This document shows, in pieces, positions 11,542 through 18,022 of a DNA stretch of 36,770 bases. The position numbers and the translations under genes are program-made. The stretch's first letter is position 1, and each line of letters begins with the position of its first letter. The stretch is from a bacterium (GTDB lineage Bacteria > UBP15 > UBA6099). The stretch lies in NCBI GenBank assembly GCA_029564595.1, contig JAKQPS010000135.1, positions 1-36,770 on the forward strand. Reading direction: 5' to 3'. The notes beneath the pieces were generated by a model. That model did not search any database. It had not been told where the DNA came from and saw nothing but the letters and a program-made list of their open reading frames with translations.

Positions 11542-11566
11542 GTAGGGGCGACCCGTCGGGTCGCCC
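11542..11566 (+). repeat. GTAGGGGCG-type REP, single hairpin
   Basis: GTAG is followed by GGGCGACCC, GT and the complementary CGGGTCGCCC, giving one REP hairpin with the GTAG head on its 5' side. It is related to the two-hairpin copies at 17054-17111 and 24208-24270. Confidence 0.8.
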
Positions 11567-14305: not shown

Positions 14306-14433
14306 TTGCGCAACGAACGGAGTTTTATATGGTTATGTGTCTTAGCTTATTCACAAGCGACCCTGAGCTGCTTTTTGGGGCAGCCTCGGAACAACGGTCG
14401 CTGAGTGATTGGCACATTCCGTTTGTTGCGCAA
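14306..14433 (+). ncRNA. Rod-like structured leader RNA, unassigned class
   Basis: Nested complementary segments fold the 128 nt into one long rod. The stems are 16 bp (14306-14321 with 14418-14433, one G-U), 7 bp (14335-14341 with 14411-14417), 4 bp (14351-14354 with 14405-14408), 7 bp AGCGACC/GGTCGCT (14356-14362 with 14396-14402), and an apical GAGCTGC/GCAGCCTC stem (14365-14371 with 1480-84 of the same line, i.e. 14380-14387) with an 8-nt loop. A 13-nt one-sided bulge follows the basal stem. It begins just after a perfect TATAAT and ends 62 nt before the lipoprotein ATG, so it is either a 5' leader or a separate small RNA. It lacks the SRP GGAA-loop motif and is shorter than typical 6S RNA. 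Confidence 0.5.
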
Positions 14434-14495
14434 CCGGGGTCTGCCCTTTCAGGTTTGTCTCCCGCACACTTCACATTTCAAAGGAGAGATTCGGC

Positions 14496-16775
14496 ATGAA
14501 AAAGAATTTTGTATTTTGTCTGCTCGCTTGTTTCGCGTTTGCTTCCGCAATGCTGTCCGGTTGCGGCGGCGGCGGCTCCGCCCCGGGGGTAACTAGAACG
14601 GCCATCGTCGGCACAGTTCTGGCGCCAGAAGGAGTTGCTTTGTCGCGCATAGCGTCAGAGCCGGGCTCTTCAGTCGCGCGAGTAGCCTCAGCCTCTGGGC
14701 TCCGAGGAAACTCGGGAGTTTCTGTCACGATGTATATCATCGACGAAACAGGGATGCAACAAGGTAATATCCTCGTTACAGCGACGACGAACGAGCAGGG
14801 AGAATACAATCTGCTCATTCCGGAAGACATCAGTAACGACAGCGTTCTGGTGGTCGCAGTCGGCGGCGGGGCAAATCAGATGAGGGCTATAGTAGTATCA
14901 AGAAACCGTCAGGTGAAAACTCGGACGGATATCAGCCCTTATTCTGAACTGGTCCTCGACAAGATCATTGATTACGGTCAGCCGATATCCGCCTATTCTG
15001 CTGCTGAGATAGCGGCGCTGGTGGATCAGGTTATCGCGGATTCGTCCTCAATGGATCTGTCAGGAGCGGCTACGATCGAAGCGGCGCTCTCGGCTCTATA
15101 CACAGGAGCGGTCGCTACCAATCTCGACAGAGATTTGGCGATAGCCTCCGGGGTATACTGCGGGAATGGCGATGTTGAGGAGGGCGAAGGATGCGATGAC
15201 GGCAATAATGTGAGCGGCGATGGCTGCTCAGCTAATTGCCAAGTCGAAACCATCGACCCCGTCTGTGGGAACGGAGTTCCCGAGACAGGAGAGCAGTGCG
15301 ACGCAGGGACATCGAATACCAATACGCCCTGCGTGCCCGGTTATGATTCTTCCTGCGACTACTGCGACACTTCGTGTGTCTCGCATACTGTTGCCGGAGG
15401 CTACTGCGGGGATGGAATAACGGAAGATCCCGAAGAAGGATGCGATGATGGAGACGCCGTATCGGGGGATGGTTGTTCGGAGTCTTGTCAGGTGGAAACG
15501 CCCAGCCCCGTTTGCGGGAATGGCACCACTGAGACAGGTGAGACCTGCGATGACGGAAATACCGTCACCGAGGTATGCACCTACGGACAGATCTCCTGCG
15601 CGGTTTGCAATGCAAGCTGTCAGTTGGTCGCCGGCGCTACCGCTTATTGCGGAGATAGCACGGTAAATGGTTCCGAGCAGTGCGACGCGGGTGGTTCAAA
15701 CACCAATACACCCTGCGTGCCCGGCTACGACTCTTCCTGCAGCTACTGCAATCTTTCCTGCCAGACAGCAACAGTTCAGGGAGGATACTGCGGCGACGGG
15801 ATCATCAACGGAACAGAGCAGTGCGATGGAGTGGCTCTAGGAGGAGCGACCTGCACCAGCCGCGGTTTTGATGGCGGGACACTGAGTTGTTCGTCCTGCT
15901 CTTTCGACACCTCGGCTTGCACGACAGACCCGGCTTGGGAACCACAGCTCTATGTGAGCGAGTGGACGGTCGCAGGCAACCCTAGAGGTGTAGCCTACTC
16001 TGCCGGCCGCGTCTATGTGGCGGACTCTGTCAATGCTCGCGTCATCGTCTATGACGAGAGCGGGAATCCCATTACAACGCTTTCTCCAACGGGAATGGAA
16101 GTTGAGAATGCGTGCATTTCCCCAGACGGAGGCAAGATAGTCATCACCGGAGGAACATCGAGCACTTTTGCTCTTTATACCTTCTCCGGCGGGAACTACA
16201 CAGAAGTTGGGACATTTGGGAGTCATGGAAGTTCAGCTGTTGGCGAGTTTTATAATGTTCAACAGTGTGTCTTTGACTCGGATGGAGTTATAGTTTCTCT
16301 CGTCGACGATACCTCTGTTGTTGGGAACGAAACTAACCACGGCTTCTGCCAGTGGAACTCAGTAACCCAACAATTCGTGGGTTGCACGCGAGGAAAGGGG
16401 ACGACAGACGGCCTTTTCACTCGCCCATACGGGATCACTCGAGATAGCTCGGGAAATCTCTATGTCGGCGATAGCACTGGTCGAATTCAGAAGTTTTCTT
16501 CAAGCGGATCCTTTGTCACCTATCTAATGCAGGTAGGTGGTACGCCAATGTCTTTGGCCTACTTGGACGAAATTATCTATGTGGCTGATTACTATCAGAA
16601 CAAGGTCAATGCTTTTGATCTGGACGGAAACCCAATTGGGTTTGTCAATGATGGCGGATCGGTTGCGGGGAATCTCCTTGACCCGATCGGTGTCGCTATC
16701 AAGTCCGACGGAACACTTTTTGTGAGCGAACCTCTCGCAATCACGAAAAAGATCAAAAAATACGCGTTTCAGTAA
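14496..16775 (+). CDS. Cys-rich (DUF4215-type) and NHL-propeller surface lipoprotein
   Basis: A 759-residue lipoprotein. The signal peptide ends in the lipobox LSGC (C23) followed by a glycine-rich linker. Residues about 40-220 are a carboxypeptidase-regulatory-like beta domain (GTVLAPEGVALS ... GEYNLLIPEDIS) and a helical stretch. Residues about 222-475 hold repeated Cys motifs of the CGNG...EGCDDGNNVSGDGC..C type (DUF4215/myxococcus Cys-rich repeat). These include two near-identical modules containing SNTNTPCVPGYDSSC about 128 residues apart. Residues about 480-759 form an NHL-like beta-propeller (GNPRGVAYSAGRVYVADSVNARV, RPYGITRDSSGNLYVGDS, DPIGVAIKSDGTLFVSEP). AAGGAGAG lies 8 nt before the ATG at 14496; longer in-frame starts read into the leader. 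A strong terminator follows. Likely a surface binding or adhesion protein. Confidence 0.85.
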   Translation: MKKNFVFCLLACFAFASAMLSGCGGGGSAPGVTRTAIVGTVLAPEGVALSRIASEPGSSVARVASASGLRGNSGVSVTMYIIDETGMQQGNILVTATTNEQGEYNLLIPEDISNDSVLVVAVGGGANQMRAIVVSRNRQVKTRTDISPYSELVLDKIIDYGQPISAYSAAEIAALVDQVIADSSSMDLSGAATIEAALSALYTGAVATNLDRDLAIASGVYCGNGDVEEGEGCDDGNNVSGDGCSANCQVETIDPVCGNGVPETGEQCDAGTSNTNTPCVPGYDSSCDYCDTSCVSHTVAGGYCGDGITEDPEEGCDDGDAVSGDGCSESCQVETPSPVCGNGTTETGETCDDGNTVTEVCTYGQISCAVCNASCQLVAGATAYCGDSTVNGSEQCDAGGSNTNTPCVPGYDSSCSYCNLSCQTATVQGGYCGDGIINGTEQCDGVALGGATCTSRGFDGGTLSCSSCSFDTSACTTDPAWEPQLYVSEWTVAGNPRGVAYSAGRVYVADSVNARVIVYDESGNPITTLSPTGMEVENACISPDGGKIVITGGTSSTFALYTFSGGNYTEVGTFGSHGSSAVGEFYNVQQCVFDSDGVIVSLVDDTSVVGNETNHGFCQWNSVTQQFVGCTRGKGTTDGLFTRPYGITRDSSGNLYVGDSTGRIQKFSSSGSFVTYLMQVGGTPMSLAYLDEIIYVADYYQNKVNAFDLDGNPIGFVNDGGSVAGNLLDPIGVAIKSDGTLFVSEPLAITKKIKKYAFQ

Positions 16776-16800
16776 AACGCGTTTCTCGAAAGAATCTCAA

Positions 16801-16830
16801 TGCTTCCCCGTAGTGGGGGAGCATTTTTTT
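16801..16830 (+). terminator. Intrinsic terminator of the lipoprotein gene
   Basis: TGCTTCCCC and GGGGGAGCA (one wobble pair) form a 9-bp GC-rich stem with a 5-nt loop, directly followed by seven T residues, 26 bp after the stop codon. Confidence 0.85.
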
Positions 16831-16848: not shown

Positions 16849-17382
16849 TCAGGATTTATATATTGTGGGGTGATTTCTATCCCGATCCCATGTTTGGGGA
16901 TTGGATTCTATATAGGTATATATTTCGTCATAGGATTTGTCATTGCGGATGATGTGTTCGTGGTAGTTGCGTTGGAATAAATTTATACCAGTGCGTTTAG
17001 ATGAGATAGATTTTATTTGTCCGATAATCGAACCAATTGTGTCTGATTTCAATGTAGGGGCGACCCGCTGGGTCGCCCTTGAATCCGGGCGATCCACCGG
17101 ATCGCCCCTACGATCATCACATAAAATGGACATTATCAAATGTATATGGTTTGGCATGATTGAATAAATATCAATTGAAATGTTGTTTCTAATTTTCTGG
17201 GTGTTCAATATTTCCTCCTCTACAATCTTCCCCAAATCATTTAAAACCATCTCACCATATATAATCTCACCAAAAATACACTCTCTGCCATGAGAACAAA
17301 TGGTAATAAAATAATCAGATGGAGATGAATAATCAAATTCTCTTAGGCGGATGGGTTTGCGTTTTGGTTTTTGGGTTTGCAT
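16849..17382 (-). CDS. REP-associated tyrosine transposase (RAYT, Y1/IS200-like)
   Basis: A 177-residue single-copy Y1 transposase. The HUH motif is MPNHIHLIM and the catalytic tyrosine is in FQRNYHEHIIR; the N-terminal RLREFDYSSPSDYFITICSH and C-terminal YIESNPQTWDRD are typical of this group. RAYTs cut and join single-stranded REP/REPIN hairpins and mobilise them through the genome. Between the two catalytic motifs the protein contains RRGDPVDRPDSRATQRVAPT, encoded entirely by a GTAGGGGCG-type REPIN (17054-17111). The frame stays open across it. A related GTAGGAGCG hairpin lies just before the start codon (17393-17437). The ATG at 17382 is chosen because earlier in-frame starts fall inside that hairpin. 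Beyond its upstream end is a truncated pilin-like gene. Confidence 0.88.
   Translation of the reverse strand: MQTQKPKRKPIRLREFDYSSPSDYFITICSHGRECIFGEIIYGEMVLNDLGKIVEEEILNTQKIRNNISIDIYSIMPNHIHLIMSILCDDRRGDPVDRPDSRATQRVAPTLKSDTIGSIIGQIKSISSKRTGINLFQRNYHEHIIRNDKSYDEIYTYIESNPQTWDRDRNHPTIYKS
17054..17111. repeat. REPIN inside the RAYT coding sequence
   Basis: Two REP hairpins face each other: GTAG plus GGGCGACCC/GGGTCGCCC, an 8-nt spacer, and GGGCGATCC/GGATCGCCC plus CTAC. The terminal GTAGGGGCGA and TCGCCCCTAC are exact inverted repeats. This is the canonical REPIN arrangement of the substrates RAYTs act on, yet it lies within the RAYT gene. Confidence 0.85.
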
Positions 17383-17392
17383 TGGGTTCAGC

Positions 17393-17437
17393 GGGCGAAC
17401 GGCCGCCTGCCTGCCGGTAGGCAAGGTTCGCTCCTAC
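17393..17437 (-). repeat. GTAGGAGCGAACC REP-like hairpin upstream of RAYT
   Basis: On the minus strand the element starts GTAGGAGCGAACC and closes with GGTTCGC-type complementarity around a GCCTACCGGCAGGC core. Its GTAG head and hairpin design match the GTAGGGGCG family with a diverged stem. It sits immediately before the RAYT start codon. Confidence 0.7.
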
Positions 17438-17446
17438 AAGGTAAAT

Positions 17447-17775
17447 TTATTTTATCAAATCACCACCACTATAGAGAGTGAAATCAAAAATGCCTTTGAT
17501 ATTCCCCGAAATATGGTCAACGCTATTTACTATTTTTCTCTGAACCCCGCCATAATACCCGATGGATTGAATCTCTGTGGTGGTGATTCCTAGCGAATCG
17601 CTGGGTGATCCCTTGGTAACAGTTAGTTCGATATTTGGATATTTATCTATAGGATCTGTTATCCCCGGGATCGTGCCATCTGGATTCAGTCCTGTGCCAC
17701 CGTCAGGTTGAATTTCAGGACATCCGGGCGACAATGGAAATTGTGTGTACCATGGCTTTATTCTTATTGAGATTT
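17447..17775 (-). pseudogene. Pilin-like (PilX-type) gene fragment, truncated at both ends
   Basis: The open frame encodes about 100 residues with no start or normal end. The text DKYPNIELTVTKG ... TEIQSIGYYGGVQRKIVNSVD ... IKGIFDFTLYSGGDL resembles the middle of PilX/PilW-like minor pilin proteins, where an 'I.S.G.YGG..R' strand is followed by a 'P.IF.YAL.SGGDL' segment. Upstream, the frame hits a stop within the 110-bp repeat beginning at 17769. Downstream, it stops just before the RAYT/REP unit. Both losses therefore coincide with repeat or transposase boundaries. The homology call is from pattern memory and is moderate. Confidence 0.45.
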
Positions 17776-17878
17776 GGGGTCAGGCCGAGATTATTGACAG
17801 TTTATTATTGAGGCTGATTGGCAATATGGGTGAAAATGGGTTCCCGCTTTCGCGGGAATGACGGCACAAGAGAAAAGG
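17769..17878 (+). repeat. 110-bp direct repeat, unit 1
   Basis: Runs from GAGATTTGGGGTCAGGCC to AGAGAAAAGG and includes the CGTCATTCCCGCG palindrome (17831-17863). It matches unit 2 (17913-18022) with two base differences. A third, partial copy of GGGGTCAGGCCGAGAT lies between them at 17886-17902. Confidence 0.9.
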
Positions 17879-17912
17879 GAGATATGGGGTCAGGCCGAGA
17901 TGGAGATATGCG

Positions 17913-18022
17913 GAGATTTGGGGTCAGGCCGAGATTGTTGACAGTTTATTATTGAGGCTGATTGGCAATATGGGTGAAAATAGGTTCCCGCTTTCGCGGG
18001 AATGACGGCACAAGAGAAAAGG
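17913..18022 (+). repeat. 110-bp direct repeat, unit 2
   Basis: Same length as unit 1, differing at ATTATTGAC/ATTGTTGAC and AAAATGGG/AAAATAGG. The 337-bp gap from 17778 to 18114 contains only these repeats and the downstream end of the YtfJ-like gene's trailer; no gene is seen. Confidence 0.9.

Follow-up and report, generated by a model that had tools for sequence, protein, structure and literature searches.

A REPIN translated within a RAYT transposase gene, at a loop that in most related genes holds REP DNA of changing family

Introduction

REPs and RAYTs both diverge and yet keep matching each other, and for the question of how they do so a RAYT gene with a REP inside it is of interest as a physical link of enzyme and substrate. 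The window analyzed here, a whole stretch of 36,770 nucleotides from a bacterium of the UBA6099 lineage (assembly GCA_029564595.1, contig JAKQPS010000135.1), contains such a gene and raises the question of what is conserved at the site of the insert and how the insert came to be there. The arrangement itself has already been described: in Quentin et al. 2018 (PMC6006769), the passages on subclass 2.4 of TnpAREP name as its hallmark REPs that are inserted in frame in the stretch from HuH to Y, and the window gene is an instance. Phase counts, in-place swapping, and internal-only copies are not reported in those passages, and no later follow-up of in-frame REP insertions was found in the open literature. 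What is new here is evidence, from comparison of sequences, for conservation of the insert at the DNA level, for its replacement in place, and, in some genomes, for its presence inside the gene only.

Results

Gene, fold, and classification of the RAYT

The minus-strand open reading frame extends over positions 16849 to 17424. The gene probably starts at the ATG at 17382 (MQTQKPKRKPIRLREFDY), in agreement with the homologue alignment; a start at the TTG at 17424, which would give 191 aa, is possible and less likely. The protein has an HUH motif and one presumed catalytic tyrosine, Tyr157, the combination that makes up the Y1 HUH core (Table 1); the role of Tyr157 is assigned by analogy with other Y1 transposases. 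It is followed by 20 residues, so that no C-terminal extension beyond the core is present. The NCBIfam profile REP_Tyr_transpos matched the protein with an E value of 3.9e-13 and 49.5 bits, below the curated cutoff of 80 bits, and Pfam Y1_Tnp matched with an E value of 0.0028. An alignment profile of the protein led to the E. coli TnpAREP structure 4er8 (E value, 1.7e-8), and a Foldseek search with the predicted fold returned the same structure (TM, 0.53; E value, 6e-5) along with TnpA of IS608 and ISDra2. E. coli TnpAREP shares the Y1 HUH fold but, according to the profile alignment and the pertinent passages of PMC6006769, has a shorter HUH-Y interval without a REP-encoded loop.

Table 1. 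Features of the RAYT locus, in window positions
Feature	Position	Strand	Basis or remark
RAYT (TnpAREP, Y1 HUH transposase), 177 aa	16849..17382	(-)	start probably ATG 17382
HUH motif NHIH, residues 78-81	17140..17151	(-)	PNHxH invariant or nearly so among homologues
REPIN, two GTAG-footed hairpins inverted, encoding residues 91-110 (RRGDPVDRPDSRATQRVAPT)	17054..17111	(-)	arms, fold, genome copies
First hairpin (gene orientation), GTAGGGGCGATCCGGTGGATCGCCC	17087..17111	(-)	
Second hairpin (gene orientation), GGGCGACCCAGCGGGTCGCCCCTAC	17054..17078	(-)	
FQ, residues 136-137 (WQ in most homologues)	16972..16977	(-)	alignment
Presumed catalytic Tyr157 in YIESNP	16912..16914	(-)	Y157 invariant over 55 homologues
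Degenerate REP-like stretch, GTAGGAGCGAAC...GTTCGC	17395..17437	(-)	weak fold, z = -1.8

The feature characteristic of subclass 2.4, a variable REP-derived in-frame insertion between beta3 (HuH) and alphaC, is present in the window RAYT. Other traits given for that subclass in the same passages of PMC6006769 are likewise shared, namely the missing C-terminal extension, REPs with GTAG feet that are long or of the "double foot" kind, and a scattered distribution over phyla. The window copy differs in that its insert is a two-hairpin REPIN and in having FQ and YIESNP, not the WQ and YIxNNP of the subclass consensus (Table 1 of that paper); because this consensus is descriptive rather than defining, the gene is called 2.4-like. 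FQ also occurs in a second RAYT of the same genome (contig C88) and its counterpart in the related genome G002, and WQ is found in a third (contig C108) and in one G002 homologue. For the cores of the window RAYT and its homologues in G002 and G003, dN/dS was about 0.12 to 0.15, a rough value at a dS of ~1.4, which suggests purifying selection on the core. Despite FQ in place of WQ, the window RAYT is probably not a dead copy.

A REPIN is translated within the gene

The earlier note had claimed, from the sequence alone, that the RAYT carries a REPIN within its coding sequence, and this was borne out by the fold, the open frame, the position between the HUH motif and Tyr157, and matches to the same family. 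The two arms, of 25 nt each, are 88% complementary and separated by a spacer of 8 nt, and either arm forms a hairpin by itself, opening with GTAGGGGCGA. Folded as single-stranded DNA, the coding strand of the REPIN reached -27.2 kcal/mol (z = -8.2), a value that none of 200 shuffles equaled. The frame stays open through the element, whose residues are numbered from the ATG at 17382. Exact GTAGGGGCGA occurred 34 times in the 4.4-Mb genome, versus 21 times for the reversed control, and a 70-nt query gave 56 matches in that genome, many of which were REP pairs elsewhere (for example, C79:7597, C92:44339, and C157:46051). The 8-mer GTAGGGGC alone was not enriched in the genome (146 occurrences versus 365 for the reversed control), so the enrichment claims rest on the longer matches. 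The element thus consists of two inverted GTAG-footed REPs with a short spacer, recurs in the genome, and shares that genome with a RAYT. The REPINs of Pseudomonas (Bertels and Rainey 2011, PMC3116915) are likewise dispersed pairs of this build in RAYT-bearing genomes, whereas here the copy number is low (tens) and one copy lies within the RAYT gene. A single REP hairpin of the same family, GTAGGGGCGACCCGTCGGGTCGCCC, is located on the same contig at 11542 to 11566.

A further REP-like hairpin had been placed at the start codon. A degenerate REP-like stretch does exist at 17395 to 17437, and the G002 homologue has a similar one (GTATGGGCGAAC...GTTCGCCC) in the corresponding position. The fold of the window stretch is weak, with 12 of 200 shuffles as good, and given the probable gene start at the ATG at 17382, it lies 13 to 55 nt upstream of the start rather than at it.

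Other features were seen near the gene. Between the RAYT gene and a converging gene for a 788-aa putative lipoprotein lies a terminator-like GCTTCCCCGTAGTGGGGGAGC with a run of T after it (16800 to 16830). The putative lipoprotein (14409 to 16775) has repeated Cys-rich CGNGxxExGExCDDGN units followed by apparent NHL-type beta-propeller repeats. On the other side, a 110-nt direct repeat is present twice at 17769 to 18022 with 98% identity; it starts near TTGGGGTCAGGCCGAGAT, contains CCGCTTTCGCGGGAATGAC, and has short copies of its start nearby.

The REPIN-encoded residues are predicted to form a disordered loop

In an AlphaFold2 model built with 55 homologues (mean pLDDT, 86), the 20 residues encoded by the REPIN had a mean pLDDT of 57 to 59 and no secondary structure, and they lay between the HUH strand (residues 79 to 86) and a helix (residues 116 to 131). 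They are thus modeled as a disordered loop, which, together with the retention of all other motifs in family members that lack a REP, supports the suggestion of the earlier note that the insert marks a tolerant loop. The same prediction suits passive tolerance, under which REPs spread randomly, the loop of the RAYT merely tolerates them, and the internal copy has no role (passages of Quentin et al. 2018; Di Nocera et al. 2013, PMC3733652). In-frame GTAG REPs are indeed known from other genes in other species, where flexible loops have been suggested as their sites (PMC3733652), and some RAYT members have no REP. The intragenic GTAG/CGTC REPs and Rickettsia palindromic elements of that study share with the window element the translation of palindromic repeats in frame, but they occur in many unrelated genes, whereas the insertions described here recur at one loop in the gene of the presumed mobilizing enzyme. 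In the window's own genome, the examination for in-frame insertions covered the RAYT loci.

The insert is conserved as DNA rather than as peptide

A sample of 77 genes of this type was assembled from relatives of the genome and from genome contigs scanned by the HUH and WQ motifs, and by record titles it covered at least 17 named phyla. The motif scan involved no selection for inserts; the first set of relatives (L093 to L132) was chosen partly for long or split matches and leans toward inserts. In 64 of the 77 homologues, the strongest hairpin of the whole gene fell in the interval between HUH and alphaC, versus 17.4 expected by length. The 5' foot GTRGGGG occurred 57 times in the HUH-WQ intervals (14.6 kb) versus twice elsewhere in the genes (23.7 kb), and its complement, the 3' foot, occurred 57 times versus none in the same sequence. 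Genes of other RAYT/Y1 subclasses, in which the HUH-Y spacing is short, were also searched, and none of the 21 had REP feet.

Alternatively, selection might act on the inserted residues, as a linker or a contact, with the REP-like DNA being incidental, a case that the frequency of a VGA...APT reading among homologues would favor. The 5' foot was found in phase 0 in 37 cases, in phase 1 in 20, and never in phase 2, in which the usual GTAG foot would supply an in-frame TAG. One DNA motif is therefore read as different peptides, which points to DNA, not peptide, as the conserved object; in addition, the stems vary freely, and the loop peptides of REP-less members are unrelated. The earlier note had named retention of the peptide in homologues without REP DNA as evidence against its view, and no such retention was found. 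Conservation of the insert at the peptide level was thus largely refuted by the two-phase foot count, and a function of the inserted residues themselves appears highly improbable.

No foot was recognizable in 15 of the 77 members, whose HUH-Y spacing was shorter (median, 82 versus 90). The REP is thus not obligatory, and as these members keep the other motifs conserved in the family, the insert is not needed for those motifs. REP-like or palindromic DNA was also noted at other places in two genes: L121 (G026:C76) has, besides the REPs in its HUH-Y loop, a second REP-like stretch near the C terminus (translated AIRELPLQ), and a RAYT of Rhizonema sp. (L163) has a long palindrome, ATGCAATTGAATAATT...AATTATTCAATTGCAT, unlike GTAG REPs, in its N-terminal coding part.

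The occupant of the site changes

A protein search of the window's own genome revealed two further RAYTs of this type, those on contigs C88 and C108, for which the alignment to the window protein was interrupted at the insert site. Both have GTAG-footed REPs at that place that differ from the window REPIN. Between the window gene and its C108, G002, and G003 counterparts, the DNA aligned on both sides of the insert and the REP family differed, with the 3' boundaries of the REP about 15 nt apart; identity to the G002 homologue was 72% in the core and 65% in the REP stem. A more extreme pair, L116 and L130, was 81% identical in the core and 29% identical in the REP stem. Closely related cores with unrelated REPs indicate, at the level of sequence, that REP families switch between close RAYTs, so that the site is persistently occupied while the occupant changes. 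On the tree of RAYTs, REP families changed 36 times, versus 46.8 in shuffles, and they tracked the tree weakly (Mantel r, 0.17; P = 0.0005). The locus around the C108 gene (L094, G000:C108:80300-81700) also contains tandem copies of REPIN units and a second, broken RAYT fragment, a local amplification of REP DNA along with part of a RAYT gene.

That the site stays occupied and its GTAG feet are conserved while the sequence changes would also suit an autoregulatory role, in which the internal REP is an operator or a site of cleavage and the RAYT uses it, by nicking of single strands or by mRNA hairpins, to limit its own gene. By analogy, mRNA structure and small RNAs regulate another transposase, that of ISPpu9, according to the relevant passages of PMC8450116. 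However, the REP-less members retain their motifs, and such autoregulation is considered quite unlikely.

Internal REPs often have cognate copies nearby and in some genomes are the only copy found

Near-copies of the internal REP (at least 20 of 24 positions) were present in the gene's own flanks, taken up to 1.5 kb, at 24 of 45 loci, versus 4.1% for the flanks of other loci. The window element had matches in four of four same-genus genomes (15 to 25 as scored) and in 7 of 56 others. The genome G054 contained 73 double-foot REPs, and those listed were almost all one sequence, which the REP within its RAYT shares; the exact double-foot pattern misses the elements of the window's own genome, whose feet are further apart. 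A count of G054 REPs within other genes was discarded, as 20 of 41 were in long open frames unlike proteins and nothing follows from it. The presumption in the earlier note that the REPIN is the substrate of the enzyme gained support from family relatedness and these cognate-copy tests, and the cutting relation stays putative.

In three genomes, each at least 94% complete, no copy of the family was found outside the RAYT gene. The sole copy within three mismatches in G035 (94% complete) was inside its RAYT, and searches of G025 and G049 at E values up to 0.01 returned the internal element only; the 2.2 Mb of G049 contain eight occurrences of GTAGGGGC, of which two are inside its RAYT. In G007, both double-foot REPs were in RAYT genes, and this genome, being 59% complete, was left out of the internal-only evidence. 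Such copies are hard to derive from a repeat that is abundant locally and lands at random, and they fit either the transfer, as one unit, of a gene already occupied or insertion in cis. Random landing alone is weakened accordingly, and passive tolerance also leaves unexplained an occupancy of ~80% over at least 17 phyla; we regard it as rather unlikely.

Discussion

The reading that we consider best, and somewhat favored overall, is that REPs of the enzyme's own kind have settled again and again in a tolerant loop and are inherited with the gene. The loop between the HUH strand and the next helix, encoded in the window gene by a REP pair of a genus-wide family, would serve as a tolerant landing and exchange site. 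Acting on single-stranded DNA, the RAYT would itself deposit cognate REPs within its gene or close to it, with survival limited to insertions that do not interrupt the reading frame. From then on, the REP would be passed on together with the gene, by descent and by transfer, enzyme gene and substrate forming a single traveling unit, and the resident REP would now and then be replaced by one of another family. Counting against this reading are the Phe at the WQ position of the window copy, the 15 of 77 members without a recognizable foot, and the weakness of the Mantel correlation; moreover, the data fit horizontal transfer of a previously occupied gene as well as insertion in cis. Any benefit of the internal REP is something we infer.

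A further proposal, which we hold only tentatively and as less probable than the repeated occupation of a tolerant loop, is that the internal REP serves as a cis-substrate that is maintained yet exchangeable. RAYT genes of this type would then cross phyla with a built-in recognition element and either seed a new genomic REP population, as may have happened with the 73 copies in G054, or stay with the sole copy, as in G035, G025, and G049. A maintained cis-substrate, like autoregulation, would lie a step beyond the DNA-level findings.

For annotators, the findings carry a warning that stretches in Y1 transposases resembling VGAGLxPA...RVAPT are translated REP DNA. The many natural swaps at one loop, in which similar cores carry different REPs, provide paired material for testing whether recognition shifts with the internal REP. 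If the cis-substrate proposal is true, REP families would found new populations from inside the gene of their own enzyme.
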